Assembly: GCA_947488655.1 (NCBI GenBank)
Contig: CANKZZ010000004.1
Coordinates: 1 to 64,000, forward strand
Source: an uncultured Psychroserpens sp.
GTDB lineage: Bacteria; Bacteroidota; Bacteroidia; Flavobacteriales; Flavobacteriaceae
Direction of reading: 5' to 3'
DNA length: 64,000 bases
The notes under the pieces are model-generated. The model searched no databases and was not told the DNA's origin. It worked only from the letters and a program-made list of their open reading frames with translations. This document shows positions 42,061-64,000 of this stretch, in pieces (position 1 is the first letter of the stretch; every line of letters begins with the position of its first letter). The translations under genes and the position numbers were made by a program.

Positions 42061-42084
42061 TGGTTAGCGGTTTCTGGACATGAG

Positions 42085-42214
42085 GTATAAGGTGTTTGTT
42101 TATGATTAGTTGTGTGGTTGAGCACCTAATTTAGTAAATAAAAACCGAATAGTAAATCTGCGAGGATTTCTAATAGTAGGTGAGAACAGCGATAAATTAT
42201 ATACCGTATTGTGC
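42085..42214 (-). repeat. attC-like site 1 (degenerate)
   Basis: A 130-bp imperfect palindrome with arms GTGTTTGTTTATGATTAGTTG and the matching AATTATATACCG side, and inner hairpin AAATCTGCGAGGATTT. Its outer cores (GTATAAG and ATTGTGC) have lost the GTT/AAC consensus. Confidence 0.75.
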
Positions 42215-42221
42215 GTTTGTT

Positions 42222-43175
42222 TTATTCTCTTTTGTCTATCTCATCTTTGCCCCAATAATCATAAAAAAGTCTACCAATTTCTGCTGAAAATTCAAATCCT
42301 GCATTCGTGGAATTAAGCGGTTTTGAATCATCTACATTTGTACATTTTAGTCCGATAATATATTCACTTTGGGATGTTTTTATATAGGCAACATCTCCTC
42401 GGTATCCTGGTGTGTATCCTGCTTTTCCGTACAATTCTATTCCAGCATATATTGGTTTGTATTTCCCGAATGCTTTCATAGTCGTGACTTCTTCAACAAA
42501 TGGGCTCCATGGCAAGTGACGAGCAAGTCCATTATCTTCATAATGTTTTAGCATAATGCTTTTGCATAAATCAGCTGCTTTTTTAGAATAGCCATATTTT
42601 TCTGGACGAGCTAATATTTGAGCTGCAGTTGCCAATGACTTTGCCGAAGTTGAAATCCATTCCCCTTTAAAAACTTCTCCTTTTACTTCGGTGTCAATAA
42701 TACCAACTTTTTTCAAAAATTTGTCGACCGCTTCTATTCCTCCAACTTCTCTCAATAATATATTAGTTGCAACATTATCAGAAATAGACATCATTAAATA
42801 TGCAACAAATGATAATGAAACTTGATTGCCAGGATATTCAAAACGCAACACACCAGATCCTAAAACTTTGTCTTCTTCTGTTAGTGTTACTAGGCTAGTT
42901 GGGTCTAAAGTGTTATTGGTAACTTGTTCGGCATAAGTAAGTAAAATGTAAAGTTTTGCTTCACTTGCAGCATTATGAATACTATTAGCTTCAATATCTA
43001 TGACTTGTCCAGTTGTAAGATTTTCTGCGTATAAATGAGCATTACCGTCGAAGTTTTCAATCAAGTCATTTAATTGACTTTCAAGGTTAGCGTTCTCTTT
43101 AACTTTAGTATTACAAGATAGATGTGATAGAAGTAAAGCTAGTATTAATATTCTAAATAGTTTAATTTTCATCAA
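42222..43175 (-). CDS. class A beta-lactamase-like serine hydrolase lipoprotein (cassette 1)
   Basis: A 317-residue protein with lipoprotein signal (HLSCNTK). Penicillin-recognising motifs are in order: S71-E-A-K74, S132-D-N134, and K251-A-G253 in place of KTG. This is a beta-lactamase-fold enzyme; beta-lactam resistance is possible but not shown. It is the only gene of a unit bounded by attC-like sites 1 and 2. The unit ends GTGCGT and ACGCAC are complementary over six bases. Confidence 0.87.
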   Translation of the reverse strand: MMKIKLFRILILALLLSHLSCNTKVKENANLESQLNDLIENFDGNAHLYAENLTTGQVIDIEANSIHNAASEAKLYILLTYAEQVTNNTLDPTSLVTLTEEDKVLGSGVLRFEYPGNQVSLSFVAYLMMSISDNVATNILLREVGGIEAVDKFLKKVGIIDTEVKGEVFKGEWISTSAKSLATAAQILARPEKYGYSKKAADLCKSIMLKHYEDNGLARHLPWSPFVEEVTTMKAFGKYKPIYAGIELYGKAGYTPGYRGDVAYIKTSQSEYIIGLKCTNVDDSKPLNSTNAGFEFSAEIGRLFYDYWGKDEIDKRE

Positions 43176-43213
43176 TGATAGATATTCAGTTGATTAGTAT
43201 GGTTTAAAATGAC

Positions 43214-43344
43214 GCACAGCGGTTTTGTTTATGGCTTATTGCGTTGGCATGTACTAAGTTAGCAAATAAAAACCGAATAGATAATCCGCGAGGATTTACG
43301 TTAGTAGGCAAGAAGCCAGTAATAAATTATATACGGTATTGTGT
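43214..43344 (-). repeat. attC-like site 2 (degenerate)
   Basis: 131 bp, with arms GGTTTTGTTTATGGCTTATTGC and ATTATATACGGT, and centre AATCCGCGAGGATT. The cores are GCACAGC and ATTGTGT, so the GTT/AAC consensus has decayed. Confidence 0.78.
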
Positions 43345-43984
43345 GGCGTTATTTTTTTCAATTTATTTTTTATTCTTTTCATATTAGAGTTAATTCTTAA
43401 TGAATGAAATCCCTTTGGGTCTATTTTGTCAAGTTCTCTAAATAATGTTTTTATATAGATAAGAAATTCTATTAGACTAAATTCTTCATACAACGCTTTT
43501 GGATCATATTTTTCAGCTTTTACATTCTTACAAAATTCGGTTGAATCTTTAGTTTTATTATAAATGGTTTTATTTCTACAATGTATAAGGTTTTTTATTT
43601 CTCCACAAAAATGTAAACTTTTATCAATTTCTTTTCCTGTTATTAATCTAGGAATAAGAATTAATTTACTCGATAAATCAAGTTTATCAATATGGTTTTT
43701 GTGTGTTTTTGTCCGAATATTATGGCAGATAATTCAAAAAAATATGATTCTAAGAATGCTCCTAAAAAAACAACAACTTTGATTGACTCTTTTAAAAGTA
43801 AAAATTCTAAATCCTGAATTTTTTCTTGTTCATTGTCGATTGTAAATCTATCGTGTTCAAAATGTCCATTATTTATTAATAAATCGCTCTCAATTTTAAG
43901 TGTTTCAAATTTAAGAAATGAGTCAATGGAAATTTTCAAAAGCGTATTATTGTGGAAATGCCCGATTCTTGCAAATGTTCTCAA
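43296..43984 (-). pseudogene. frameshifted gene of unknown function (cassette 2)
   Basis: A TTG-started frame (43984) covers 107 codons and stops at 43661. A second frame, open from at least 43720 down to the stop at 43296, continues the same protein. About 230 residues of coherent helical protein result from one missing base near 43690-43710. The first part contains FLLLKESIKVVVFLGAFLES and a FFELSAI segment; the second contains ITGKEIDKSLHFC. The final 15 codons lie inside attC-like site 2. No family is recognised; HEPN-type helical proteins look similar in composition. Confidence 0.65.
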
Positions 43985-44030
43985 ATCATGATTTATAGTT
44001 AGGGTTTGATTTAATGACAGCTAACTTGTA

Positions 44031-44091
44031 ACACAACAAATATTAATTACTAATATCCCGTAAATAAATCAGGATATATTAATATTTGTGC
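44031..44091. repeat. 61-bp hairpin at the right end of cassette 2, possible short attC-like site
   Basis: ACACAAC, complementary to the GTGT at the start of cassette 2, opens a 61-bp inverted repeat (ACAAATATTAAT with ATTAATATTTGT, plus ATATCC with GGATAT). It is unlike the 130-bp family. The 13-mer TATCCCGTAAATA occurs at 44054 and again at 44098. It could equally be a terminator or an unrelated repeat. Confidence 0.4.
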
Positions 44092-44150
44092 TACTGTTAT
44101 CCCGTAAATATATATTATTTACCTCAGTATAAAAAAGGGGCTTATCGGTT

Positions 44151-44441
44151 CTAAATATTCTCTATTTTTCCATAAAACCTCACCAAAAATTTTCCAAAAA
44201 TAAAATACAGGATAAGCACAGTAAGTCCTCCAATTAAATAGCCATTATTTAATAATGCTTCATATCCATATTTGTAACAGAATAAAACAATACAAATCAT
44301 AAACTGAAGTATTGCATAGCCAATATTACCTTTTGAACTATAGCCAAATAGGCCAAGAAAATGAGTTTTTGTTAGTCCGAAAATAAGATGAGGCATCGCA
44401 TTTACAAGTAATGCACCAATTATAAAGTCAATATAATTCAT
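44151..44441 (-). CDS. small membrane protein of unknown function
   Basis: A 96-residue protein with three hydrophobic segments (about residues 4-24, 38-55 and 66-87). It lies alone between the 61-bp hairpin and a MOSC gene fragment. No family is recognised. It has no 130-bp site to its left, so it may or may not be a former cassette. Confidence 0.6.
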   Translation of the reverse strand: MNYIDFIIGALLVNAMPHLIFGLTKTHFLGLFGYSSKGNIGYAILQFMICIVLFCYKYGYEALLNNGYLIGGLTVLILYFIFGKFLVRFYGKIENI

Positions 44442-44467
44442 TTTTACTTTTAGTAATCATTAGTATG

Positions 44468-44547
44468 TTTTTCTATCTGAAACTTCATCAACTTTAACCG
44501 TTACATTTCCGAGGAAATAAACAGCGTCAACATGGTTTTTGTAGCAC
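44468..44547 (-). pseudogene. fragment of a second MOSC gene
   Basis: About 80 bp align without gaps worth noting to 41497-41575 of the intact MOSC gene, at roughly 75 percent identity by eye. The frame still encodes FLGNVTVKVDEVSDRK, compared with FLGNETVKDDEVSDRK in the intact gene. Both ends are lost. It lies directly against the end of the pyruvate carboxylase gene. Confidence 0.75.
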
Positions 44548-44548
44548 C

Positions 44549-47500
44549 CTATTGTAGCGTCACAATCAAATCATCCTGTTTTACCATAGAACCTTCTTTT
44601 AGTGATATGGTTTTTATTTTTCCAGCTTTAGAGGCAGTCACAGTGGTTTCCATTTTCATGGCTTCAATAATAAAAAGCGGGTCATTTTCTTTAACCTCTT
44701 GTCCTTTTTTAACCAAAACTTTATAAAGTGATCCTTGTAAAGGTGCTCCAATTTGATTGGCATCTGCTGGATCTATTTTAGTGTTGATTTCTAGTTTAAG
44801 ATTTAAAGTCGTGTCTAAAACGTCCACAAATCTGTTTTCACCATTTACCTTAAAAAACACAGTTCTCATACCTTTATCATCAGGAATTCCAATAGAAAGG
44901 AGTTTGATAATTACTGTTTTTCCAGGTTCTAATTCTATAAGGATTTCTTCGCCAAGCTTCATTCCGTAGAAAAAATTCTTTGTAGGTACTAAAGTTAAGT
45001 TGCCATACAATTTATAATTTTCATGTGCTTGCTCAAATACTTTTGGGTATAAGGTGTATGATAGAAAATCTTCCATTTCTATTGGACGCGTAAAGCCTTT
45101 TTGAAACTTTTTTGTAAAGGCTTTAAATTCTAAATCAAAATCTATAGGTTGTAAATGTGCGTTTGGTCTATTGGTATATGGTTTTCTGTTTTTCAGAATT
45201 ATTTTCTGTAATTTCTTCGGAAATCCGCCAGTTGGTTGCCCTAAATCTCCCATAAAGAAACTTATTACCGAATCTGGAAAAGACATATCCTTTCCACGCT
45301 CCATAACATCTTCAGTAGTAAAATTATTGGTCACCATAAAAATTGCCATATCTCCAACAACTTTAGAACTAGGTGTCACTTTTATCAAATTTCCGAAGAG
45401 TTTATTTACATCAGCATACATTTTTTTGACCTCATCAAAACGATCTCCTAAACCTAATGCAGTGGCTTGCGGACGCAAATTTGAATATTGTCCGCCAGGA
45501 ATTTCATGTTCAAAAACCTCTGCAGTTCCTGCTTTAAGTCCAGACTCAAATGGATAATACAGCTCGCGAGTATCTTCCCAGAAATTAGAAAACGCATTCA
45601 GCTTTGTCATATCAAACTCATGAGCTCGTGGCTGATTTTTCATCATCTCAACAATTGCATTAAAATTAGGTTGCGATGTTAAACCAGACAAGCCACTCAA
45701 TGCTACATCAACAACATCAACACCAGCTTCAATAGCTTTTAAATAGGTGGCACTTTGTAACGACGACGTATCATGCGTGTGTAAATGAATTGGTATGTTT
45801 ACAGTAGCCTTCAATGCAGTCACCAACTCTGTAGCAGCATAAGGTTTTAACAATCCTGCCATATCTTTGATACAAATCATGTGTGCACCAGCATTTTCTA
45901 AATCTTTGGCGAGTTGCGTGTAATATTTGAGGTTGTATTTGGTCTCATTAACATCTAGAATGTCTCCTGTATAACTTAAAGCTGCTTCTGCAATACCTCC
46001 AGTTTTATCACGTACATAATTGATGCTTGGTTCCATAGCTTTAACCCAATTTAAGGAATCAAAAATTCTAAAAACATCCACACCATTTTCCCAAGATTTC
46101 TCTACAAATTTTTCGATGAGATTATCAGGATAGGCTTTATAACCAACGCCATTTGAACCTCTCAGCAACATTTGGAATAATATATTTGGGACTGCTTTTC
46201 GCAATTCTCTTAAACGTGTCCACGGACTTTCATGCAAGAACCTTAAACAGACATCAAAAGTTGCGCCTCCCCAAACTTCCATACTAAAGGTGTTGGGATG
46301 GTTTTTTGCAAAACTCTCAGCAACATTCATCATATCAAATGTTCGCATACGTGTTGCTAACAACGATTGATGTGCATCTCGCATTGTGGTATCTGTAAAA
46401 TGAATTTTCTTCTCATCTTTTAACCAAGCGCAAAATTTCTCAGGACCTAGTTCTGTAAGCAGATCTTTTGTGCCTTTTGGGTGTGCTTCGGAAAGACTAA
46501 ACTTTGGAACCTTTGCATTTCTAAATACTTTAGTCTTGTCAATATTTTTAACATCAGAATTTCCATTTACAATCACTTCAGCTAAAAAATTAACCACTTT
46601 AGAGGTTCTGTCCTGCGGAAGTTTTATGTCAAATAATGCAGGCGTATTCTGAATAAAATTAACTGTTACTTTTCCTTCTTTAAAGGTGTCGTGCTGGATC
46701 ACATTTTGTAAAAAATGGATATTGGTCTTAACACCACGAATTCTAAATTCTTTTAAAGCACGCACCATTTTACGAGTTGCTCCATCTAAAGTTCTTCCAT
46801 GAGAAGAGACTTTTACGAGCATAGAATCAAAAAACGGACTCACATTATAACCTTGATAAATACTTCCTGCATCTAATCGAATTCCCATTCCTGAGGCACT
46901 TCTGTAAGTTGTGATATTACCGTAATCTGGTGTGAAATTATTTGCAGGATCCTCTGTAGTTAAACGACATTGTAGTGCAAAACCATAGGTAGCAATAGAG
47001 TCTTGACCAAAAATTTTAATTTGTTTACTATCTAATGTATAACCACCAGCAACAAAAATTTGCGTCTTTACCAAGTCAATACCTGTTACCATTTCGGTAA
47101 CTGTATGTTCTACTTGAATTCTTGGATTAACTTCTATGAAATATATGTTATCTTCTGGATCTACTAAAAATTCTACGGTTCCAATATTGTTATAGCCAAC
47201 TTCTGTAGCAATAGCAACCGCATATTTGTATAAGTTGTTTTTAACTTCGGTACTCACATTATGCGAAGGTGCAATCTCTACTACTTTTTGATGACGACGT
47301 TGCACAGAGCAATCACGTTCATGTAAATGTCTTATGTTTCCGTGGTTATCTGCTACAATTTGAACTTCAATATGTTTTGGGTTCTCTACATATTTTTCTA
47401 AAAACATGGTGTCATCACCAAACGCATTTAAGGCTTCATTTCTAGCAGAATCAAAATTATGTTCTAAATCTTCATCTTTTCTAATAATTCGCATGCCACG

Positions 47501-48001
47501 ACCACCTCCTCCAGAAGCAGCTTTAAGCATTAGTGGATAGCCAATAGTTGCAGCTTCTGATAATGCTATTTTGAGTGAAGATAGTTTCTTTTTATTGCTT
47601 TCAATAATGGGAACCTTACATTTAACAGCTACTTTTTTTGCTGTAATTTTATCACCTAAAGCATCCATAACTTCAGGTTTTGGTCCCACAAAAATAATTC
47701 CATTTGCAGCACACTGTCTGGCAAATTCTGAGTTTTCAGATAAAAACCCATAACCAGGATGAATGGCATCTACGTTTTTAGATTTTGCCAAATCTATAAT
47801 TTGCGCAATATCCAAATACGGTTTTAAAGGTTGGTTGTTCTCTCCAATTTGATAGGATTCATCAGCTTTGTTTCTATGTTGAGAATAGCGATCTTCATAA
47901 GTGTAAATTGCTACAGTGGCTAAATTTAACTCTGTACAAGCACGTAATACACGTATTGCAATTTCTCCTCGATTGGCAACAAGAACCTTTTTAATTTTCA
48001 T
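44549..48001 (-). CDS. pyc: pyruvate carboxylase
   Basis: A single-chain 1150-residue pyruvate carboxylase, the usual length. It makes oxaloacetate from pyruvate and bicarbonate using ATP and biotin. The biotin carboxylase domain is at residues 1-450 (ASGGGGRGMRI near 165, HERDCSVQRR near 230). The carboxyltransferase domain is at 530-820 (TDTTMRDAHQSLLATRMRT near 533, GGATFDVCLRFL near 572). The C-terminal biotinyl domain has Lys1116 in EAMKMETT. It is an intact anaplerotic core gene flanked on both sides by degenerate cassette DNA. Confidence 0.96.
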   Translation of the reverse strand: MKIKKVLVANRGEIAIRVLRACTELNLATVAIYTYEDRYSQHRNKADESYQIGENNQPLKPYLDIAQIIDLAKSKNVDAIHPGYGFLSENSEFARQCAANGIIFVGPKPEVMDALGDKITAKKVAVKCKVPIIESNKKKLSSLKIALSEAATIGYPLMLKAASGGGGRGMRIIRKDEDLEHNFDSARNEALNAFGDDTMFLEKYVENPKHIEVQIVADNHGNIRHLHERDCSVQRRHQKVVEIAPSHNVSTEVKNNLYKYAVAIATEVGYNNIGTVEFLVDPEDNIYFIEVNPRIQVEHTVTEMVTGIDLVKTQIFVAGGYTLDSKQIKIFGQDSIATYGFALQCRLTTEDPANNFTPDYGNITTYRSASGMGIRLDAGSIYQGYNVSPFFDSMLVKVSSHGRTLDGATRKMVRALKEFRIRGVKTNIHFLQNVIQHDTFKEGKVTVNFIQNTPALFDIKLPQDRTSKVVNFLAEVIVNGNSDVKNIDKTKVFRNAKVPKFSLSEAHPKGTKDLLTELGPEKFCAWLKDEKKIHFTDTTMRDAHQSLLATRMRTFDMMNVAESFAKNHPNTFSMEVWGGATFDVCLRFLHESPWTRLRELRKAVPNILFQMLLRGSNGVGYKAYPDNLIEKFVEKSWENGVDVFRIFDSLNWVKAMEPSINYVRDKTGGIAEAALSYTGDILDVNETKYNLKYYTQLAKDLENAGAHMICIKDMAGLLKPYAATELVTALKATVNIPIHLHTHDTSSLQSATYLKAIEAGVDVVDVALSGLSGLTSQPNFNAIVEMMKNQPRAHEFDMTKLNAFSNFWEDTRELYYPFESGLKAGTAEVFEHEIPGGQYSNLRPQATALGLGDRFDEVKKMYADVNKLFGNLIKVTPSSKVVGDMAIFMVTNNFTTEDVMERGKDMSFPDSVISFFMGDLGQPTGGFPKKLQKIILKNRKPYTNRPNAHLQPIDFDLEFKAFTKKFQKGFTRPIEMEDFLSYTLYPKVFEQAHENYKLYGNLTLVPTKNFFYGMKLGEEILIELEPGKTVIIKLLSIGIPDDKGMRTVFFKVNGENRFVDVLDTTLNLKLEINTKIDPADANQIGAPLQGSLYKVLVKKGQEVKENDPLFIIEAMKMETTVTASKAGKIKTISLKEGSMVKQDDLIVTLQ

Positions 48002-48344
48002 TTTTTATGAATTATAAGATGATTTATGTGTGTTTTATATTTCCGAAGAACATCTAAATTCGCTCATTTAAATTGTGAAAATTTTAAGCGCTTTTATAGT
48101 TGCTAACAGCAAGGCTATAAGGTAATTTTAAAAATCATTATTTACAAGGGAGATATTACGAAAAACGCAAACTAATTTATAGTCTCTATTGACCATAAAA
48201 ATTGGCTGTCTAAAAAATTGTCTTCTATATGCATATAAAGAATCTATAATGCCAAATAGTAATACATTGAGATTTTTCGCTATCGCTCTGAATGACCTTA
48301 AAACACTTTTAGATAGCCTTGTTTACTGTGTTATCTTAAAACAC
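48002..48344. other. non-coding stretch, no feature recognised
   Basis: Upstream of pyc. It holds one copy of the TTCCGAAG 8-mer at 48041 but no open frame of interest, no 130-bp site and no tRNA. It probably contains the pyc promoter plus degenerate sequence. Confidence 0.6.
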
Positions 48345-48856
48345 TAATCTACCTTCTTTCCAGGCATTTCTTGTCCGCCTTGAAATAAAGTTAAACTTTC
48401 AACTATGCCTTCTGCATTTCTATAAAAGTGCAGATCTGCAGCAACCACTTTTAAAAAGAATTTGTCTTTTTCTTCAGCAAATAATTCAAATTCACCTTTG
48501 ACCTGTAGCTTGTCCATATATTTTATTGTCTTTAACGCTTACTGCAATATTAAAACCTGGTTGAATTTCATACGTGCCAATATATTGTTTAAGCACGTTG
48601 ACATCTAACATGAGTTCTGGACGTTTTGTAGGAGGTGCTTTGTCTATCCCTTTTCCTGTTATTACATTTCCACTAGCTGTTACTTCTCCAATTCCGTTTG
48701 CTTTTAGTAATTTCTCTAATGGGTCTTCATAAATTTCTCCTCTGTCAATAGGCATAATTTTATCATTTACGGTAGCCACAATAAAATTTACGACATCATT
48801 ATTTTTTTGTTTTCCGAAGAGATTCTTTATGAAGTTCAGAGGTTTGTTTAGCTTGT
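48345..48856 (-). pseudogene. C-terminal remnant of a serine hydrolase (DUF3471-like)
   Basis: The frame encodes KQYIGTYEIQPGFNIAVSVK and then KIYGQATGQ, the C-terminal domain found on beta-lactamase-fold serine hydrolases. A frameshift near 48510 (one extra A) ends the frame at 48492. The correct continuation FELFAEEKDKFFLKVV runs to a TAG at 48345. The N-terminal catalytic part is missing and the fragment abuts attC-like site 3, from which an apparent start codon is borrowed. This looks like a core gene cut by the edge of the array. Confidence 0.8.
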
Positions 48857-48987
48857 TTACAACGTTTTCGTGTATGGCTAGTTTATGTTTAAGCAACTAA
48901 TTTAGTAAACAAATACAAGCTAGAGGAAATTCCGAAGGAATTTCTAAGTGGGCGAGTACTAGCAATGAATTATTCACGTTGTTACAG
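48857..48987 (-). repeat. attC-like site 3
   Basis: 131 bp. Outer cores are TTTACAAC and GTTACAG, with arms GTTTTCGTGTATGGCTAG and GAATTATTCACGTT. The inner hairpin GAAATTCCGAAGGAATTTC happens to contain TTCCGAAG. Confidence 0.85.
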
Positions 48988-48996
48988 CACGTATTT

Positions 48997-49676: not shown

Positions 49677-49681
49677 ATGTG

Positions 49682-49813
49682 CTGTAACGTGTTCGTGTAT
49701 GGTTAGTTGTGGATTTTAAACACTTACTTTTCGGTATGTTACTGTCGTTTGATTTATATATTTCACTTTCGTCCTAGCGATTAAACCGCTATTATTTTTA
49801 TACAATGTTGGCA
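49682..49813 (-). repeat. attC-like site 4
   Basis: 132 bp. Outer cores are CTGTAAC and GTTGGCA. The left arm is the standard GTGTTCGTGTATGGTTAGTTG; the centre and right arm have diverged (no GGATTTT hairpin). GTGCTGTAAC at its left is the exact complement of the start of cassette 3, GTTACAGCAC. Confidence 0.78.
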
Positions 49814-49822
49814 ACGGGCTTT

Positions 49823-53092: not shown

Positions 53093-53104
53093 TTTTCAGC
53101 TTGT

Positions 53105-53236
53105 TGCCAACGTGTTCGTGTGTGGTTTGTTACGTTGGCTAGAACTAAGTTAGCAAAAGAAAACGAACTAGAGAAAAATCCGTAGGATTTTCCGAGTAGA
53201 CACAGAACTAGCAATTAAATATACACGTTGTTGTAG
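53105..53236 (-). repeat. attC-like site 5
   Basis: 132 bp. Outer cores are TGCCAAC and GTTGTAG. It belongs to the subfamily with centre AAAAATCCGTAGGATTTT, shared with sites 6, 7 and 11. Confidence 0.88.
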
Positions 53237-53246
53237 GTAGTTTTTG

Positions 53247-53380
53247 TTATAATATCTCAACATTATAGATTAAGTCCAATTCTCCATCTAAAAAAAGTTT
53301 TATTTCGAATTCTTTTTCAAACTCCATAAACCAACTTTCTTTTTTATGATATTCACAAATTCGTTTGACAATTTTTCCAA
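53247..53380 (-). pseudogene. 3' fragment of a cassette gene (cassette 5 remnant)
   Basis: An open frame without start encodes about 44 residues (KIVKRICEYHKKESWFMEFE, then LFLDGELDLIYNVEIL) and stops at 53247 just inside site 5. Its 5' part and half of the following site are deleted. No family is recognised. Confidence 0.65.
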
Positions 53381-53421
53381 TTAGTCGATAATCAGGCAAT
53401 AAATTTTATACGGTGTTGTAT
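53381..53421 (-). repeat. half attC-like site (right arm only)
   Basis: The sequence from AGTCGATAATCAGGCAAT to ATACGGTGTTGTAT matches only the right arm of the 130-bp family (compare sites 8 and 12). The left arm was lost in the deletion that truncated cassette 5. The core GTTGTAT belongs to cassette 6. Confidence 0.75.
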
Positions 53422-53427
53422 GTAGTT

Positions 53428-54516
53428 TTATTTTTTATTAACTAAATCTGTTAAACTGGTATAAAGAATTTCGTTAGAATTTTCATAGATTCTCAGCATC
53501 AAACGTTTAGCGCTTGTCGTTTCGATAATATGTTCTATCACATAGAGAAACTCTCCATTTTGAAATTGATAATCAAAACCAGAACCATATTTGGTTTGTT
53601 GTTCAATCTCTCCATCATACAGAACCAAACTTGGTGCATCTATTTTCGTTTTTGGTTTATTCCAAGATGTATATCTTATTGAGCCATCTTTTAGTCTATC
53701 AACCTTAATTATAAACTTATTATTTTCAGAATTTATAATGTTTTCTCTAAGCTCATTACTATAAGTAATTCGTTTATCTTGAATTTTAAATTTATAATAT
53801 TCTTTACCATTACTAGCATAGAAACTACTATCTGAGACCCAATATACTTTACCAAAAGAACTAAAATCAAATTTATATTTTTCTTCTATGTCGTAATCGG
53901 TAATAAGAATTGGTTGAGCTTTTTTGTCTATTATTTGATGCAAAGAAATACCTGCGAAATCAATTCCATCATTAGCGTAGCTATAAATGAACTTTAAATT
54001 TGGGGAAAAAATGAGCTCGTCGCCAGTTATATACGATGTTGAGCCATTTTCTAAGTTTATTAATAAGTTTGTAGTACTTGACTCAAACCAATTCTCATAA
54101 ATAACACAACTATTTATTTTTTTTATGAAACCGCTATAAGATAAACTAAGAAGTTGTTCATCATCTTCTAAACAAGCTTTAATAGTTTTAATTGGTGTTT
54201 TGACAGTATAACAGGATTCAGTTATATTAACCTGAGAAGGAATTATAGTTTTATCTAATAATTGATTTTGTATTTGTCTTGCATTTTCATAATCCTCCTT
54301 TTTTATAGTAGTTAAGACTATATCATAATTTTTGTTGCCTCTAATCAATAAATTAAAATTTTTATTATTTGGTATGATCGAGTCTAGCTTCTGTTTATAA
54401 TAGAGTGAATATTTTGATTCTATTTCGAGGCCATCTTTAAAGTTATTAAATATTCGATATTCTTTAATTGAAATACTAAGTAAAAAAATATTGAGAATTA
54501 TAGTCGCAAATTTCAT
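53428..54516 (-). CDS. secreted protein of unknown function (cassette 6)
   Basis: A 362-residue protein with a hydrophobic N-terminal segment (about residues 3-17) that may be a signal peptide or anchor. The rest is beta-rich and polar with motifs such as DELIFSPNLKFIYSYANDGI, reminiscent of propeller-like proteins but not assignable. It is the sole gene of a unit whose ends GTTGTATGTA and TACATACAAC are exact complements. Confidence 0.7.
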   Translation of the reverse strand: MKFATIILNIFLLSISIKEYRIFNNFKDGLEIESKYSLYYKQKLDSIIPNNKNFNLLIRGNKNYDIVLTTIKKEDYENARQIQNQLLDKTIIPSQVNITESCYTVKTPIKTIKACLEDDEQLLSLSYSGFIKKINSCVIYENWFESSTTNLLINLENGSTSYITGDELIFSPNLKFIYSYANDGIDFAGISLHQIIDKKAQPILITDYDIEEKYKFDFSSFGKVYWVSDSSFYASNGKEYYKFKIQDKRITYSNELRENIINSENNKFIIKVDRLKDGSIRYTSWNKPKTKIDAPSLVLYDGEIEQQTKYGSGFDYQFQNGEFLYVIEHIIETTSAKRLMLRIYENSNEILYTSLTDLVNKK

Positions 54517-54539
54517 TTTCAGGTGTTTGTTTTATTTAC

Positions 54540-54671
54540 ATACAACGGTTTTGTGTATGATTAGTGGCGTTGACTAGAACCAAGTTAGTAAAAGAAAACG
54601 AACCAGAGGGAAATCCGTAGGATTTTCCGAGTTCACACAGAACCAGCAATTGATTATATACGTTATTGTGG
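54540..54671 (-). repeat. attC-like site 6
   Basis: 132 bp. Outer cores are ATACAAC and ATTGTGG (the second has lost GTT). Its centre is AAATCCGTAGGATTTT. Confidence 0.87.
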
Positions 54672-54679
54672 TGCGTTTT

Positions 54680-55336: not shown

Positions 55337-55376
55337 ATGTCTTGTCCTGAAATATGGCTACAGGTTAAAATTGAAT

Positions 55377-56246
55377 TTACGCTGTTTTTAAATATACCAT
55401 ATTTGGTGTTTTATAGTCTAAAGATAAATGTAATCTTATTTTGTTGTATAAATTAATTGCATTTTTTGTTGCTCTTTTAGCGTGAGCCACGTCAGTAAAG
55501 GTTTGGTCCAAATAGAATTCATCTTTTAAGATACCGTTTACACGCTCAGCCATTGCATTTTCGTAGCAATGATTTTCTTGTGTCATACTGATTCCAATCT
55601 TTTTTCTCTTAAGAATTTGTGTGTATTGATTGCTACAATATTGTATACCTCTATCAGAATGATGAATAAGTTGTTTAATGTCTTTAGCTTGATATATAGC
55701 TTTATTAAGCGCTCTGACGCATCCTTTGAGCTCTAGGCTATCACTTATGTCATAACCAACTATTTTACGAGAATACATGTCTGTAATCAGCGCTAGATAA
55801 CAAAATCCTTTTAGGGTTCTGATATAGGTTATGTCTGACACCCAAACTTGGTTTGGTCTAGTCACTTCCAAGTCTTTTATAATATTGTTGTACTTATAAA
55901 AACGATGGTATGAGTTAGTGGTTCTGCTACTGTATTTCTTTCTGAGTGTTAGCATTTTGTGTTTTCTAAGAATGTTGAACAAAGTGTCTCTGCCGACTTT
56001 AAGACTGGCTTTGGTAAACTCATTATCTAGTGATACTTTGAGTTTTCGCACACCTTCTCTAGGAAGGGATCTGCGTCTTTTGTGTACTATTTCAATAATC
56101 TGTTGTTCCAGTTTTAAACGTTTGTCAGCTCTAGATTTGTACTTATAATAAGCATCACGTTTAAGTCCAAAACAATGGGTTATAGTTGTTAAAGAAGCAA
56201 ATCCCTTAGATTTCTCTTTGGCTTTGATTAAGGCTTTATACTTAGC
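55377..56246 (-). CDS. IS3-family transposase OrfB (DDE integrase)
   Basis: The OrfB frame is open from the A9 slippery tract (56247-56255) to the stop at 55377, 289 codons. The first ATG inside it is at 56051, so full product needs -1 frameshifting from OrfA, as is known for IS3 elements. A helical HTH_21-like region precedes the catalytic core (VWVSDITYI, then HHSDRGIQY, then AERVNGILKDE), giving D-D-E. Confidence 0.92.
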   Translation of the reverse strand, partial: AKYKALIKAKEKSKGFASLTTITHCFGLKRDAYYKYKSRADKRLKLEQQIIEIVHKRRRSLPREGVRKLKVSLDNEFTKASLKVGRDTLFNILRKHKMLTLRKKYSSRTTNSYHRFYKYNNIIKDLEVTRPNQVWVSDITYIRTLKGFCYLALITDMYSRKIVGYDISDSLELKGCVRALNKAIYQAKDIKQLIHHSDRGIQYCSNQYTQILKRKKIGISMTQENHCYENAMAERVNGILKDEFYLDQTFTDVAHAKRATKNAINLYNKIRLHLSLDYKTPNMVYLKTA

Positions 56247-56599
56247 TTTTTTTTTAGTTCAGCAACAGATTTGTAACCTAAATCTTCCGCAGCTACTTCA
56301 AGGTAAGAATCCAATACCATAGCATCGAGATCTTTTTTTAAGAGTAGTTTCTTAAGCTGTTCAATCTCTTTTTGAAGCGCTTTAATTCTAGATATTTCGT
56401 CTTTTGTTTCCACTTTTACTCTGGTGTTCATTAAGTCTTTACGATTGTACTTTTTAATCCACTCATTAACGGTTGTAGGCGCAATAGAGTAGAGTTTACA
56501 TAGTTCGCTCTTTGTGTGTTTTCCGGTTGTAAGTTCGGCTAAAATTTTTAATTTGAAAGGTTCGCTGTAACGTCTAATTACTTTGTCATTTTTGTACAT
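56228..56599 (-). CDS. IS3-family transposase OrfA
   Basis: A 123-residue HTH protein (YSEPFKLKILAELTTGKHTK, then LYSIAPTTVNEWIKKY) followed by a leucine-zipper-like helix (IKALQKEIEQLKKLLLKK). Its last codons overlap OrfB at an A9 run, the expected slippage site. Confidence 0.92.
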   Translation of the reverse strand: MYKNDKVIRRYSEPFKLKILAELTTGKHTKSELCKLYSIAPTTVNEWIKKYNRKDLMNTRVKVETKDEISRIKALQKEIEQLKKLLLKKDLDAMVLDSYLEVAAEDLGYKSVAELKKKLSIKP

Positions 56600-56645
56600 A
56601 ATGTTTAAAATTATGTAGCCTTTATTCAGGACGGGTCAATATTGT

Positions 56646-56777
56646 GTACAACGTGTTCGTGTATGGTTAGTTGCGATGGCAAGAACTAAGTTAACAAAAG
56701 AAAACGAACCTGAGGAAAATCCGTAGGATTTTCTGAGTACACGCAGACCAAGCAATTGACTATACACGGTGTTAGGG
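56646..56777 (-). repeat. attC-like site 7
   Basis: 132 bp. Outer cores are GTACAAC and GTTAGGG, with centre AAAATCCGTAGGATTTT. Its left core does not match the start of cassette 7 (ATTGTGG), so that unit has been rearranged. Confidence 0.87.
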
Positions 56778-57308
56778 TACGTTTTTTATTTCAGTTTTTG
56801 TCATTCGGATTGTGTCCGTTACTAAACCATTTTTCCAGCCCACATTTTTTTTAGGATTTTTTTCTCGAAGAACAGTATCTATAAAATCATAGAGTTTTTT
56901 CGGTTTTAGATGACAGATAGAATCTCCAATTCCGTTGGTAAACTGTTGGTTTTTCTTATCCAATAAGCTAAAAGTAAACACAAAATCATCTTGTTTTCCG
57001 CTAAATTCTAAACATAAAGTATGTCCATATTCATCCGCAATTTGTGGTTTTCCATTGTGATAAGTCCAAGAAACTTCAGACCAAACTTTTTTAATTACTA
57101 TTTTTCGACCGTTAATTAATGTTAACGTGTCTTTACTAGGTTTAAAGTCAACAACTGTAAATCCATTATTTATTGCATTTTCTCTACTTTTAGAATGTCC
57201 AAAAAGTCCTTCGTTTTTGTTTGAAATTTTTGTCACAAAATCATAAATATAATAGACAGCAAATAGAGATATTAAAATCAGTACATATTTAATTATTCGT
57301 TTCTTCAT
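56772..57308 (-). CDS. single-pass membrane or secreted protein of unknown function (cassette 8)
   Basis: A 178-residue protein with an N-terminal membrane helix (about residues 7-24) and a polar extracytoplasmic domain (VVDFKPSKDTLTLINGRKIV, FVFTFSLLDKKNQQF). The TAA stop is formed by the site core itself (CCCTAAC read on the minus strand), so the gene ends exactly at the recombination core. Unit ends GTTAGGGTAC and GTACCCTAAC are exact complements. Confidence 0.75.
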   Translation of the reverse strand: MKKRIIKYVLILISLFAVYYIYDFVTKISNKNEGLFGHSKSRENAINNGFTVVDFKPSKDTLTLINGRKIVIKKVWSEVSWTYHNGKPQIADEYGHTLCLEFSGKQDDFVFTFSLLDKKNQQFTNGIGDSICHLKPKKLYDFIDTVLREKNPKKNVGWKNGLVTDTIRMTKTEIKNVP

Positions 57309-57327
57309 GTCGCTTTTCTCAAATGTA

Positions 57328-57460
57328 CCCTAACGTGTTTGTGTATGGTTAGTTGCGTGGTTAGGCAACTAATTTAGCAAATAAATTACAGATAGAATAT
57401 TCCGCAGGAATGTTCGTAAGTCGGCAGTGACCTAGCAATTAATTATACACGGTGTTGTAG
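57328..57460 (-). repeat. attC-like site 8
   Basis: 133 bp. Outer cores are CCCTAAC and GTTGTAG. It is nearly identical to site 12 over its full length (centre ATTCCGCAGGAAT), although the outer cores differ. Confidence 0.9.
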
Positions 57461-57470
57461 CACGTTTTTA

Positions 57471-57776: not shown

Positions 57777-57777
57777 T

Positions 57778-58029: not shown

Positions 58030-58051
58030 TTCGTGATTTTTCTCAAATGTG

Positions 58052-58186
58052 CTACAACGGTTTTGTGTATGGTTAGTTGCGTGGTTAAGCAACTAATTTA
58101 GTAAACAAAAACGAACGCGAGAAAATTCCGAAGGAATTTTCCAAATAAGCACTTGCCAAAGCAATTAATTATACACGTTGTTGTGC
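58052..58186 (-). repeat. attC-like site 9
   Basis: 135 bp. Outer cores are CTACAAC and GTTGTGC. The centre AAAATTCCGAAGGAATTTT contains the 8-mer TTCCGAAG by its palindromic form. GTGCTACAAC at the left is the exact complement of the start of cassette 9. Confidence 0.88.
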
Positions 58187-58191
58187 TTTCG

Positions 58192-58974
58192 TTATTTTTC
58201 TTGTTTTAAATAAGCATCAATAGCCTTAATCGTCTTTAGTCCTTCTTTGTGTAGTAACAATCGCACTTTATGATTCAGTAAAATGTTAGCTTTTGTCAAG
58301 CCAAAATTATCTGAAATTATTTTTTTTTGGTCTTCATCTAGGTTTATCAGGGAATTATAAAAATTATAAAATGATTTTTCATTCGAATTTTCTTTCCACC
58401 TTTCTGGCATCCCAAGGTCTGATCCAGAACCTGTTGCGAATAAAGGATAAATATTATCATTATATTTTAAGATGGAATTATTGTGTACGCTCTCTTCTTT
58501 TATGACTTCATCAAATAATCTGTAGTAATATTGAATACTATTTCTTAAAGAATCTGAAGTAATGAGTCCTGTTTTGCCAGACGATTTCATGTCATCAAAA
58601 ACTATATTTTTACCTTCAAACCAATGGATTCCAAAAGCATTACCTGACTTTGAGAGTAATAAAGTAGGGTCTTCAGGTATTGAATCTGATTGCAAATAAC
58701 GTCCCAAATAAGTATAAGAATCTAATCGAATAGTATCCCCTTGAAAAAGCCTTTCTAATTCTGCTAAGTCCTGTTTAATATCTAATTGTATTCTAGCAAG
58801 GTATTTCTTTTCATCAACTTTGTCTTTTCTTATATCATTAAGATTATTTAATTGCAAGGCAATAAGAATACCAATTACAACAAGAATAACTTCTCCAATA
58901 GCATAAATGAAATAATTACTGAGTTTATTTTCAGTTAGTAGTTTTTGTCTAATTTTCCTAAAGAATTTTATCAT
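58192..58974 (-). CDS. DUF6090-like single-pass membrane protein (cassette 10)
   Basis: A 260-residue protein. Its opening MIKFFRKIRQKLLTENKLSN and the helix YAIGEVILVVIGILIALQLN (residues 24-43) are typical of a large flavobacterial family (DUF6090), which occurs in many copies per genome and has no known function. The rest is a helical extracytoplasmic domain. Unit ends GTTGTGCTT and AAGCACAAC are exact complements. Confidence 0.85.
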   Translation of the reverse strand: MIKFFRKIRQKLLTENKLSNYFIYAIGEVILVVIGILIALQLNNLNDIRKDKVDEKKYLARIQLDIKQDLAELERLFQGDTIRLDSYTYLGRYLQSDSIPEDPTLLLSKSGNAFGIHWFEGKNIVFDDMKSSGKTGLITSDSLRNSIQYYYRLFDEVIKEESVHNNSILKYNDNIYPLFATGSGSDLGMPERWKENSNEKSFYNFYNSLINLDEDQKKIISDNFGLTKANILLNHKVRLLLHKEGLKTIKAIDAYLKQEK

Positions 58975-58998
58975 TGGTTAGTGGTTTCTGATAATGAA

Positions 58999-59130
58999 GC
59001 ACAACGTGTACGTGTATGGTTTGTTACGGTCAAGTACGCGATTATTTTTCCGCAGTAACAATATAGTAAAAAGTATGCAAAGATCTTCGTCTTAGCCTGC
59101 TGTAGTAATTAACTATACACGTTGTTAGCT
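58999..59130 (-). repeat. attC-like site 10
   Basis: 132 bp. Outer cores are GCACAAC and GTTAGCT, with standard arms (GTGTACGTGTATGGTTTGTTAC and AATTAACTATACACGTT). The centre is diverged and lacks the GGATTTT-type hairpin. Confidence 0.83.
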
Positions 59131-60602
59131 GTTGTTTTTATTTGCCAAGTTTTAATTGTTCCGTCATAAGAAGCACTTATTATTGTTTTATTATCCAATA
59201 CTTCAATGGATTGGACAAAGTTTTGATGTGCAAATTCCGAAATCAGTTTACCATCTAGATTCCATATTTTTACTTTGTTATCTTCTCCACCTGTTGCAAA
59301 CTGATAATTATTTATAAACTTAATTGTTCTAATTATTCCCGAATGAGCTTTAAATGTTTTAAATTCTACTTGATTATAATCTTTAGACAAAGTTCGAATT
59401 GAAATTTCCCCTTTTAAATTTCCACTAATTAGTTTTCGTGTTAACCTTTTGAAGCTAAGGCTAATAATTGAACAGTCTTCAAAAAATGTTTTTATTGATT
59501 TTTCTGTCTTTAAATTCCAAATTTTAATTGTTCCATCTTCAGAACCTGATGCAATAATGTCTTGGTCTAATTTAATGACTTGCCAAACCCAATTAGTATG
59601 TTCTTTAAATGTTTGTAAAACTTCTCCTTTTAGGTTTGATATTTTGACAGTATTGTCTCCACTACTCGAAGCAAAAGTATAATTATCTAAAGGGCAAAGC
59701 GAAAGTACAATTGCAGAATGAATTTCTATGCTGTTTATAGTTTTGAAGTTTTTCCAAACTAATATTTTGCGGTCTCTAGAACCTGAAATAAAAATATCAT
59801 CACTTATTTTCTTAATACACAAAATTGAGTTTTGATGTCCGTTCAATGAATGTGTTTGTTTGCCAGAGATATTCCAAGATTTTATTTCTTTGTCTCTTCC
59901 TCCACTAAGAATCGTATTATTATCAAATTTGAGTATTGACCAGATGTATCCTAAATGACCAGAAAAAGGCTCTTGTATTTGTTTTGTTAATTCTTTTGAA
60001 TATAGAATATCACTTCTTAAAACAAATTTTTCGCCTTGAGTTAAGGTTTCTCCTTCGTGCCAAATATTATGGTCAAAAATAATAAGGTCTCCTTGCTTTG
60101 GAATGTATGAAGCCCAAATTTCATCCGTTTCTTTTGTTTTGAAAAATAAGGTTCGTCCACCTTTAAATTCAGTTGCACTATTCAAATAAATCATGAACGT
60201 CAACTTAGATTGTGTTGTTTCATTTCGATAATGAACTCCATCGAGATGTCTATGAAAATATTGGTTAGCAGAATATTTACAATATCTAAGTCTATTATTC
60301 AATTCTTTTAAAAGCCAAACTCCATTTTCGGATTGAATAGTTGAATTTATTTTGATTGTTTCTGGTATATATGGTTTTACTTTTTCAAAAAGTTTCTTAG
60401 CTAAATCATCATTATCCATTACAAACCTTTCGTTGTTTCTGTAATAAGTTGGATAATTTGAAATGGCTTTTTTAAATGAGTTTTTAATTCGGGTATCTAA
60501 TAGTTCCGCACATTCTTTTTTAGATAAAAGAGCTGGAATAACAAAACAAGTAGAGTTTGTATCTGGCAGTATATTTTGTATTTCAATTTTCGATTTTATC
60601 AA
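59109..60602 (-). CDS. 2OG-Fe(II) dioxygenase fused to a WD40 propeller (cassette 11, second gene)
   Basis: A 497-residue two-domain protein. Residues about 15-205 form a prolyl-hydroxylase-like 2-oxoglutarate/Fe(II) oxygenase with metal ligands H119, D121 and H182 and 2OG-binding R196. Residues about 210-490 hold seven WD40-type repeats (LSGGRDKEIKSWNISGKQ, FISGSRDRKILVWKNF, and others). The last seven codons (TANNVYS) read through the right arm of attC-like site 10. It overlaps the HD-domain gene by 4 bp. The substrate is unknown; the propeller may recruit a protein target. Confidence 0.86.
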   Translation of the reverse strand: MIKSKIEIQNILPDTNSTCFVIPALLSKKECAELLDTRIKNSFKKAISNYPTYYRNNERFVMDNDDLAKKLFEKVKPYIPETIKINSTIQSENGVWLLKELNNRLRYCKYSANQYFHRHLDGVHYRNETTQSKLTFMIYLNSATEFKGGRTLFFKTKETDEIWASYIPKQGDLIIFDHNIWHEGETLTQGEKFVLRSDILYSKELTKQIQEPFSGHLGYIWSILKFDNNTILSGGRDKEIKSWNISGKQTHSLNGHQNSILCIKKISDDIFISGSRDRKILVWKNFKTINSIEIHSAIVLSLCPLDNYTFASSSGDNTVKISNLKGEVLQTFKEHTNWVWQVIKLDQDIIASGSEDGTIKIWNLKTEKSIKTFFEDCSIISLSFKRLTRKLISGNLKGEISIRTLSKDYNQVEFKTFKAHSGIIRTIKFINNYQFATGGEDNKVKIWNLDGKLISEFAHQNFVQSIEVLDNKTIISASYDGTIKTWQIKTTANNVYS

Positions 60603-61213: not shown

Positions 61214-61230
61214 TATTTTTTTAAAATTAC

Positions 61231-61362
61231 AGCTAACGTGTTCGTGTATGGTTAGTTGCGTTGGCTAGGTCTAAATTAGTAAAAGAAAACGAACCAGAGG
61301 AAAATCCGTAGGATTTTCCGAGTACACACAGAACTAGCAATTAAATATACACGTTGTTACCT
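61231..61362 (-). repeat. attC-like site 11
   Basis: 132 bp. Outer cores are AGCTAAC and GTTACCT, with centre GAAAATCCGTAGGATTTTC. It is close to sites 5-7. Confidence 0.9.
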
Positions 61363-61371
61363 GTAGTTATT

Positions 61372-61959: not shown

Positions 61960-61965
61960 AATTAC

Positions 61966-62098
61966 AGGTAACGTTGTTGTGTATGGTTAGTTGCGTGGTT
62001 AAGCAACTAATTTAGCAAATAAATCACAGATAGAATATTCCGCAGGAATGTTCGTAAGTCGGCAGTGACCAAGCAATTAATTATACACGGTGTTAGCA
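61966..62098 (-). repeat. attC-like site 12
   Basis: 133 bp. Outer cores are AGGTAAC and GTTAGCA, with centre ATTCCGCAGGAAT. It is nearly identical to site 8. Confidence 0.9.
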
Positions 62099-62107
62099 AA
62101 TCGGTTT

Positions 62108-62449: not shown

Positions 62450-62465
62450 TTTTTGGTCAACTGTT

Positions 62466-62597
62466 TGCTAACGGTTTTGTGTATGATTTCGTTGCGTGTT
62501 TAAGCAACTAATTTAGCAAATACAAACTGAATAGAAAATCCGCGAGGATTTTCTTAAGTAGGCTAGTACTAGCAATTAATTATACACGTTGTTGTAA
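62466..62597 (-). repeat. attC-like site 13
   Basis: 132 bp. Outer cores are TGCTAAC and GTTGTAA, with centre AGAAAATCCGCGAGGATTTTCT. The left arm reads GTGTATGATTTCGTTGCG, shared with site 14. Confidence 0.9.
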
Positions 62598-62605
62598 CCA
62601 GTTTT

Positions 62606-62983
62606 TCACTCCACTTTTTCATAATAATGATTCAAGTCGTAATTCAATATAATTTTCGGCTTTTCAAAAACTTTATTGCTGAAATATGTACTATGTCCAG
62701 CTTGTCCGAATTCATATTCGTAAGTCCAGTCAATTTCGGTTGTTAGTATTCCGTAACTAACTTCATAAGTTCCATTTCCATAAAATCCGCTCTTAAATGT
62801 TCCGTCAGATTTTAAATTCAGCGTGTCTGCTTTGTGAGGTGATTCCACACAGCAAGGTTCATTTCCGTAATTAGTATTTACATAAATTCCAACTACACTA
62901 TTTTTTGTCATAGGAATATTACATCGCAATACTGAAATTCCAATAATTAAAATTATTCCGATTGCGAAAAGTATGCGTTTCAT
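62606..62983 (-). CDS. small lipoprotein of unknown function (cassette 14, second gene)
   Basis: A 125-residue protein with a lipobox ending SVLRC (Cys about residue 21) and a beta-rich domain (SVVGIYVNTNYGNEPCCVES). Related small lipoproteins occur singly in Bacteroidetes, but no named family is recognised. It overlaps the upstream membrane-protein gene by ATGA. Confidence 0.75.
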   Translation of the reverse strand: MKRILFAIGIILIIGISVLRCNIPMTKNSVVGIYVNTNYGNEPCCVESPHKADTLNLKSDGTFKSGFYGNGTYEVSYGILTTEIDWTYEYEFGQAGHSTYFSNKVFEKPKIILNYDLNHYYEKVE

Positions 62984-63336
62984 TTAATTTTAGGTTTGAA
63001 AATCAAAATCGCAAAGGTTGTAATGAAAATAATTAAAGGTATCTGAAACGCCAAATAGTTAAACTTTTCAATTGGTATTTCTGTTAAACGTCTAATTAAT
63101 GGTGTTAGCATTAGCCCAAAAATCAGGATTCTAAAAATTTTCCTTTTAAAATGTTTCGTAAAAAACGAAATAAGTCCAATTAATCCAATAATTGCAAAAA
63201 TTTGGTCATTATTTCCAAATTCAAAACTTGTCCAAAATAGCCATATGATAAATGGAATTCCAATCATTTGTCCCATTAGAATTATGAGAGAATATGAAGT
63301 CAAAGAAATGGTCTTTATGATGGTTTCAAATTTCAA
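62980..63336 (-). CDS. small polytopic membrane protein (cassette 14, first gene), TTG start
   Basis: A 118-residue protein with about four hydrophobic segments. The start is a TTG at 63336 in the context CGAAATTGAAATTTG, similar to the TTG start of cassette 9. Unit ends GTTGTAACCA and TGGTTACAAC are exact complements. The function is unknown. Confidence 0.72.
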   Translation of the reverse strand: MKFETIIKTISLTSYSLIILMGQMIGIPFIIWLFWTSFEFGNNDQIFAIIGLIGLISFFTKHFKRKIFRILIFGLMLTPLIRRLTEIPIEKFNYLAFQIPLIIFITTFAILIFKPKIK

Positions 63337-63359
63337 TTTCGAGGTTTTTCTTAAATTGG

Positions 63360-63491
63360 TTACAACGTGTTTGTGTATGATTTCGTTGCGTGTTTAAGCA
63401 CTAAAGTTAGCAAATAAATCACAGATAGAAAGTCCGCGAGGACTTTCGTAAGTAAGCTTTAACTAGCAATGAATTATACACGGTGTTGTAA
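63360..63491 (-). repeat. attC-like site 14
   Basis: 132 bp. Outer cores are TTACAAC and GTTGTAA, with centre GAAAGTCCGCGAGGACTTTC, where compensating changes (AGTCC with GGACT) keep the hairpin. Confidence 0.9.
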
Positions 63492-63499
63492 AACGTTTT

Positions 63500-63997
63500 T
63501 TATTTAAATTTCAAATTCTCATTTAACTCATTTCGGAATATTTTCATATTTTTTTTCATAGTGTAATATGGGAAAATCAATATCAATGTTGCTATTGGAA
63601 CAAACAATATTAATGCAGGATAAGCTTCTTTTATTATGATTACAGAAAATAATATCAAAAAGAATATTGGTCCAATTATTATCGCAAGTGTTGAGATTTC
63701 ATCATATCCGAAAATTTTCACGTTTAGTTTGGTTTTCTGATTTTCCACACTTATTATTCCAACAGCATTAGACGATTGAATATTCAGATTCATAAACTTT
63801 CTTTTTTTTCTCAAAGTGAATTTATTATCTCCTACTTTTCCGCAAAATATTTTTTTTGAACGATATAATTCGTCTAATAAAATAGGTGTTTCTTCATCAA
63901 CAATCAGTTTGATTCTTTTCTGAAATTCTTTTGGTTCAATATCATATTCAAACACCAAGGAATCAATTAACTTTAATTTTTTAAATAGACTTTCCAT
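63500..63997 (-). CDS. membrane protein of unknown function (cassette 15)
   Basis: A 165-residue protein with two adjacent hydrophobic helices (about residues 101-121 and 124-147) after a polar N-terminal half. The start codon is 3 bp from the window edge. The other end of its unit lies outside, so the array continues to the right. No family is recognised. Confidence 0.72.
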   Translation of the reverse strand: MESLFKKLKLIDSLVFEYDIEPKEFQKRIKLIVDEETPILLDELYRSKKIFCGKVGDNKFTLRKKRKFMNLNIQSSNAVGIISVENQKTKLNVKIFGYDEISTLAIIIGPIFFLILFSVIIIKEAYPALILFVPIATLILIFPYYTMKKNMKIFRNELNENLKFK

Positions 63998-64000
63998 TTT

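Follow-up and report, generated by a model that had tools for sequence, protein, structure and literature searches.

The stretch of DNA analysed here, in the following called the window, comprises the first 64 kb (64,000 nucleotides) of a 566-kb contig (CANKZZ010000004.1, assembly GCA_947488655.1) from an uncultured Psychroserpens sp. of the family Flavobacteriaceae. Its right part carries short gene units separated by palindromic sites, which had been predicted from the letters alone to form an integron-like cassette array. Using a covariance model (R1) trained on 20 sites from the window's own contig, 26 complete attC-like sites were found between 42.1 and 74.4 kb of the contig, all on the + strand. 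Fourteen of these are situated within the window, where there is also a right half site at 53396, as the original prediction had counted; the array continues past the window end with 12 further sites (64009-74427, same contig numbering). The length from AAC to GTT is 122-128 bp in the 24 sites measured. At its far end the array is terminated by the gene of a tyrosine recombinase, and an attI-like site lies between this gene and the cassettes. No Rfam family reached its gathering score in the region 41000-64000.

The right end of each site is complementary to the left end of the next one over about 10 nt, and the sequence of these ends varies from unit to unit. In 23 adjacent end pairs on average 6.5 of 9 positions match, compared to 3.0 in 529 non-adjacent pairs and 2.7 for the two ends of one and the same site. 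Complementary ends were found in 24 of the 27 intervals of the array, including those at the divergent sites 49677 and 73604, at the half site and at attI; one of the 24 has an internal mismatch and one, the leftmost, a decayed core. Three intervals do not match: the one from 43209 to 48852, where 43.35-48.85 kb has no matching core and a presumed pyruvate carboxylase gene is located, the one between 53100 and the half site, and the cassette into which an IS3-like element is inserted. Across 34 loci with 199 units, 148 units have at least 6 complementary nucleotides beyond AAC/GTT, compared to 67 of 3980 shuffled ones. In these units the R arm consists of GTT and 11 further nucleotides: positions 4-10 form Watson-Crick pairs (0.71-0.95, shuffled 0.28-0.53), position 11 is a fixed G.T (0.82), pairing resumes at positions 12-14 and is at background from position 15 onwards. 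The matched ends represent the core and inverse core known from integron cassettes, though they are longer. The core is conserved as GTTR, the part of the expected consensus GTTRRRY/RYYYAAC that is retained; positions 5-7 do not fit RRY.

A test independent of the covariance model made use of exact core pairs spaced 200-3000 bp apart. The window's own array (48.8-76.2 kb) gave 19 pairs on the + strand and none on the - strand, and positions 1-41000 of the window gave none on either strand. Upstream of 68 related integrases, 88 pairs were found on the predicted strand (3.7 expected) and 2 on the opposite strand (4.0 expected). Downstream of them there were 5 pairs on the + strand (7.0 expected) and 33 on the - strand (5.4 expected); 26 of the latter belong to the loci L114, L117, L120, L122 and L132, whose layout resembles the class B arrangement described below.

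An open reading frame (ORF) of at least 40 aa is present in 180 units, and in 172 of them the longest one points away from attI; in these it starts at a median of 30 nt from the core and fills 93% of the unit. A further 19 units have no ORF of this length. A Pfam scan of 30 cassette proteins, including two from the questionable stretch at 43-49 kb, gave no match at E<=0.01 for 16; among the remaining ones are SMI1/KNR4, a HEPN/AbiU2 protein, an EndoU nuclease, a thioesterase, a beta-lactamase-fold protein, a WD40 protein and domains of unknown function (DUFs). PADLOC matched 4 of 20 cassette proteins at E<=0.01; the protein at 3467-4606 of locus L009 is a weak match to phage-defence candidates (PDC-M63B 4e-12, PD-T4-10_B 3e-7), and the WD40 protein has a stronger, seemingly unspecific match. 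At the start of the cassettes an A at position 11 is nearly invariant and is followed by a TTTG-like sequence (positions 11-15), which we take to be somewhat like the Bacteroidetes -7 box, so that cassettes might carry in part of a promoter.

Comparison of near-identical units indicates that they have moved as units. In Maribacter litopenaei a 618-bp unit is present twice (99.4%), with identity reaching from AAC of one site to the next TAACG. Croceivirga thetidis (L116) carries two identical copies of a 274-bp unit, one internal to the array and the other immediately at attI. A 1.3-kb cassette (90-91%) occupies the attI position in two genomes and an internal position in the array of a third. 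The congener G045 has 11 full copies (>=95%) of a 527-bp unit, all 11 of which begin at AAC behind different flanks. Among 33 near-identical repeat pairs the left boundary falls at AAC in 25 (chance 8%), the right boundary is found in 23 (chance 26%), and 19 have both boundaries (AA^C/G^TT). The breakpoints point to a crossover in the core, at G^TT / AA^C. The window cassette at 58.06-59.00 kb recurs in G045 with 92% identity, which stops at AAGCACAACG. A comparison of unit order with related genomes had been suggested as a check, and in G045 the order differs: homologues (E<=1e-10) of 5 of the 32 cassette ORFs were found in the G045 array stretches compared, two of the five hitting the same place. 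R1 gives 109 matches in G045, which also has a class B integrase flanked by sites; most of its sites (C14, C1, C17) are on stretches reaching contig ends, and its arrays are a candidate super-array.

The recombinase at the array end has 355 aa, is encoded divergently from the minus-strand cassette genes and matches PF00589 with 142.7 bits. It is one of eight PF00589 matches in the genome, and the only one on the array contig. The closest named integrase is that of Psychroserpens damuponensis (Flavobacteriaceae; 81% identical). A search beyond 64,000 for a tyrosine recombinase with the IntI patch had been suggested as a check; the recombinase is found there, the patch is not. The protein has no counterpart of residues 204-246 of VchIntIA, which constitute the IntI-specific insertion of about 42 aa (patch III / I2 region), and the array is therefore not a canonical integron. 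The distance from Arg to HxxR is 91 aa in all 28 relatives measured (24 of 24 named ones, including this one, and 4 of 4 of class B; 22 of 56 rows outside the motif were left out), compared to 133 aa in 5 of 5 IntI and 97 aa in one Xer. With the integron integrase model TIGR02249 the protein scored 200.9 bits in two stretches (cut-off 265). Its best NCBIfam score was to XerA (NF040815), at 211.2 bits (cut-off 220), and XerD (178.4, cut-off 329.6) and XerC (177.5, cut-off 335.15) were likewise below the cut-off. The catalytic fold is Xer-like, an extra N-terminal domain of about 75 aa is present, and the integrase branches apart from IntI and from the five Xer rows in the comparison.

Orthologues (class A; E<1e-130, 59-63% identity) were found in 14 of 299 family genomes including this one, one of them with two stop codons. 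Below class A the next best matches fall to E 5e-75 and form class B (frames of about 300-390 aa), which also adjoins arrays at the loci inspected. A class B query matched 192 of the 299 genomes at E<=1e-45, compared to E 1e-28 to 1e-34 for the Xer-like genes of four genomes. Internal stop codons are present in the integrase genes of L081, L083, L091 and L015, so some platforms may be dead. Directly before the start codon of class A integrases, e.g. in L042 and L040, there is a palindrome TTTTGTATATCAAA..TTTGATATACAAAA, a candidate operator or second recombinase site.

An attI-like site is present where the first cassette starts. In the array described here the first cassette ends GGTGCTAAC/ACATTTATATACATATAAATGT, about 170 bp ahead of the integrase start. 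This boundary of the form YAAC/ACATTTATATACATATAAATGT has similar counterparts in orthologues, several of which show YAAC or CATC followed by an AC(A/G)TAAATATGTG-like sequence, and after class B integrases. Six class B loci were read by eye, one of which (G265) encodes a 194-aa integrase fragment only; in each of them a ...G^TTR boundary follows immediately after the integrase stop, and a matching inverse core was found in all five whose first site fell in the stretch inspected. Consequently, class B arrays are situated downstream of the integrase, with cassettes still reading away from attI. Judging from its sequence, the site probably serves as attI.

Two alignments were used to assess folding: A3 contains 126 distinct sites found near class A integrases in 31 sources, and A4 contains 127 distinct rows from class B loci and further sites of the genome analysed here. 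In A3, 97.6% of the stem cells are paired, 13 of 19 pairs show changes on both sides, and the covariation score is 0.437, compared to 0.03-0.09 with the partners slid. Mismatches on the model strand are G.T rather than A.C (284 vs 8 in A3, 328 vs 13 in A4), giving 612 G.T on one strand against 21 on the other, and two stem positions are nearly always G.T (124 and 106 of 126 in A3, 118 and 114 of 127 in A4). Because a G.T pair corresponds to A.C on the opposite strand, selection for pairing seems to act on one strand, the non-coding one. With cassette ends joined in silico, the bottom strand is the more stable one in 192 of 194 (mean -26.6 vs -22.5 kcal/mol). The site is thus predicted to fold as a single strand with the bottom strand favoured, and the restriction of the G.T wobbles to one strand predicts bottom-strand recombination; the bottom strand is also the one recombined by integrons, according to the part of PMC8946536 available. 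The spacers are of unequal length (6 vs 3 nt), and the extrahelical bases amount to one bulged T in one arm variant and none in the other.

R1 sites (E<=1e-5) occur in 251 of the 299 family genomes. Sites and integrase were both found in 182 genomes, the integrase only in 10, sites only in 69 and neither in 38, which corresponds to an odds ratio of 10. R1 matches at E<=1e-6 were obtained in 27 of the 247 genomes of a class sample. Of the 80 named loci, 53 lie within 10 kb of a contig end on the array side and 21 on the other side, an excess to be expected because repeat arrays would break contigs. The window's own genome has at least 47 R1 matches at E<=0.001 (150 of 2895 first-look candidates scored), some of them single and elsewhere in the genome. 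Others form a second cluster of sites on contig 3 (G000, 158-182 kb; L133, L134); none of the eight PF00589 matches is near it, and the cluster thus resembles a CALIN (cluster of attC sites lacking integron-integrases).

The features of the array are compiled in Table 1. The element breaking a cassette, whose inverse core is lost, is presumably of the IS3 family judging from the look of its ORFs. Between the two leftmost sites and the remaining array lies the gene 44549-48001 (- strand), which we take to encode a pyruvate carboxylase; in the congeners G045 and G267 its matches are only partial, with 43-45% identity.

Table 1. Features of the cassette array (contig numbering; the last two rows lie beyond the window)
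Feature	Position	Strand	Score or basis
attC-like site 1, left array end, degenerate core	42080..42219	+	R1 85.8 bits
attC-like site 2	43209..43349	+	R1 97.0 bits
attC-like site 3	48852..48992	+	R1 122.5 bits
attC-like site 4, centre divergent, both cores match neighbours	49677..49818	+	R1 33.5 bits; cores read
attC-like site 5	53100..53241	+	R1 136.8 bits
Half site, right arm and GTTGTATGTA core only; core pairs with left core of 54535 site	53396..53429	+	
attC-like site 6	54535..54676	+	R1 124.2 bits
IS3-like element breaking a cassette, edges approximate	55347..56622	-	transposase-like ORFs 55377-56051, 56228-56599
attC-like site 7	56641..56782	+	R1 143.5 bits
attC-like site 8	57323..57465	+	R1 138.5 bits
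attC-like site 9	58047..58191	+	R1 141.3 bits
Cassette gene DUF6090; same cassette in congener G045	58192..58974	-	92% identical
attC-like site 10, unusual centre	58994..59135	+	R1 93.7 bits
attC-like site 11	61226..61367	+	R1 142.0 bits
attC-like site 12	61961..62103	+	R1 134.0 bits
attC-like site 13	62461..62602	+	R1 133.1 bits
attC-like site 14	63355..63496	+	R1 130.1 bits
Start of cassette crossing window end	63497..64000	-	ORF 63500-63997
attI-like site	76142-76172		
Class A integrase, locus L009	76317-77381	+	

With a recombinase in the integron position, matched unit ends and mobile units, the predicted integron-like array in a flavobacterium is borne out, and the locus is very probably a chromosomal cassette platform run by a tyrosine recombinase without the IntI patch. 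We considered several alternatives. The sites could be used as double-stranded inverted repeats, as Xer uses dif, with the hairpin potential being incidental. The Xer-like catalytic fold and the absent insertion fit this idea, which is nevertheless unlikely, since a double-stranded repeat gives no reason for the imbalance of G.T between the strands, for the greater stability of one strand in nearly all joined sites or for the unequal spacers. It is very unlikely that the units are ordinary cassettes of a canonical, patch-bearing IntI that was lost or is encoded elsewhere, with the neighbouring recombinase incidental. Canonical IntI does score above the cut-off in 84 of 296 phylum genomes (loci L138-L157 are from this sample), one of the 84 belonging to the class of the window genome and 83 lying outside it, and in 69 genomes with sites no patch-less integrase was detected. 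However, TIGR02249 gave no match at E<=1e-40 in the genome of the window. Moreover, no R1 site was found in 74 kb of sequence surrounding 20 canonical IntI loci from the phylum (with short flanks) and one plasmid intI1, core pairs are found upstream of patch-less integrases on one strand in many genera, and class B integrases adjoin the same kind of array with the attI-like boundary in six loci and the inverse core in five.

Least probable of all, in our view, is that the sites are non-mobile repeats (terminators, or hairpins of a REPIN-like or IS200/605-like kind) distributed through homologous recombination or by a different transposase. Intergenic hairpins occur widely in bacteria, and site bodies are repeated or exchanged apart from the gene, in L165 as well as between this genome and G045. 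Such repeats would, however, not provide each unit with its own matched hypervariable ends, and neither an attI-type boundary beside a recombinase nor unit-exact breakpoints would be expected of them.

Several observations weigh against a platform run by the patch-less recombinase. Sites are present in 69 of the 107 genomes without integrase (E<=1e-45), and 10 of the 192 integrase-bearing genomes have no R1 sites. R1 matches were obtained at 26 of 80 named integrase loci, 3 of them weak and on the minus strand, with less than 3 kb of contig on the array side at 36 of the 80. Among the 33 repeat pairs 14 do not have both boundaries, and the pairs are not independent as one G045 unit supplies many of them. 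Because A3 and A4 were fitted to the model, their values lean toward pairing. An older cassette shared with G045 has neither flanking site body in common with it, so site bodies must also be exchanged by another route, and in L165 near-identical site bodies of 186-192 bp are repeated alone with cores differing on both sides, a hint at how the sites in one genome become alike. Finally, the Bacteroidetes SOS boxes published in PMC8565304, in the part available, were found upstream of at most 4 of 75 integrases (CTAA-N5-TTAG 2, GGA-N5-TCC 1, TTAC-N5-GTAA 1).

Taken together, the comparative evidence strongly supports a patch-less integron, and for its mechanism we propose the following. The tyrosine recombinase would insert circular single-gene cassettes at the attI-like site beside its own gene and excise them again. 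A cassette would, as a rule, consist of one gene reading away from attI and an attC-like site at its 3' end. In the circle the site would comprise an R stem of 14 bp and an L stem of 16 bp, separated by an unequal spacer (6/3 nt), and a variable tip; the crossover would take place at G^TT / AA^C. It is the 'bottom' (non-coding) strand that would fold into the recombined hairpin, being marked by fixed G.T wobble pairs and not mainly by extrahelical bases, and recombination would proceed without the IntI-specific insertion. The array, its cores, the attI-like boundary, the breakpoints, the asymmetry of the strands and the lack of the insertion are directly visible in the sequences; from these we infer the excision as circles, the recombination of single strands and the role of this integrase.

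It is rather probable that these platforms represent a second integron lineage, either IntI-independent or in a pre-patch state, which is present in most Flavobacteriaceae, attains up to about a hundred sites in a genome, recombines single-stranded hairpins without the insertion, reads the strand from fixed G.T wobbles and is possibly helped by the N-terminal domain, which is absent from IntI. The additional domain of IntI was reportedly found to be necessary for activity by Messier and Roy in 2001. It has been proposed that a Xer-like enzyme became able to act on folded single strands by gaining such a domain (PMC4792948, as far as available), and a cassette system without this domain makes the proposal directly testable. 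According to the available part of PMC9668308, the IntI step of IntegronFinder requires the IntI-specific domain. Tools of this kind would miss the system as a complete integron, and a large mobile gene pool in a widespread bacterial group may thus be uncounted.

The original prediction knew of no integron in Bacteroidetes, which has to be corrected: besides the canonical IntI genes mentioned above, a complete integron in Salinibacter ruber M1 and In0 elements in Bacteroidetes have been reported (PMC9024848, in the part available), and Bacteroidota or the Bacteroidetes/Chlorobi group are already named among integron-bearing taxa in the available parts of several publications. These reports concern the same phylum; unlike the present system, however, the elements of PMC9024848 were found with IntegronFinder, whose IntI step depends on the IntI-specific domain. 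No description of a patch-less system was found in the open-access literature, the search of which left preprints and most subscription papers outside, or in the parts available of PMC9024848, PMC2426708, PMC8618304, PMC8138268, PMC9668308, PMC8352920, PMC8946536, PMC4792948 and PMC8565304; it may already have been described outside this literature. The present enzymes may belong to the integron-like subgroup of simple tyrosine recombinases in which the CAT insertion is incompletely conserved (Smyshlyaev 2021, PMC8138268). For the insertion-less members of this subgroup the available text mentions no cassettes or sites, the word 'attC' occurring 0 times in it.

With XerA, XerC and XerD the recombinase shares the catalytic domain and the lack of the insertion, but it differs from them by its separate branch, the Arg-HxxR distance (91 vs 97 aa) and the linkage to cassette arrays. 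The array as a whole is most readily compared to the IntI integrons, such as class 1 and the Vibrio superintegron. Both have a recombinase gene, an attI or attI-like site and co-oriented, mostly single-gene cassettes with 3' palindromic sites, the logic of core and inverse core, a crossover at G^TT, a bottom strand that is favoured (in the present sites by prediction), and large arrays in which many cassette genes are of unknown function. In contrast to IntI integrons, the canonical loci of which gave no R1 match where tried, the integrase lacks the insertion and has the additional N-terminal domain, the core is conserved only as GTTR, the R stem has 14 bp instead of 7 bp, and the strand is marked by G.T wobbles at fixed positions, a single extrahelical base being present in one variant of the site.

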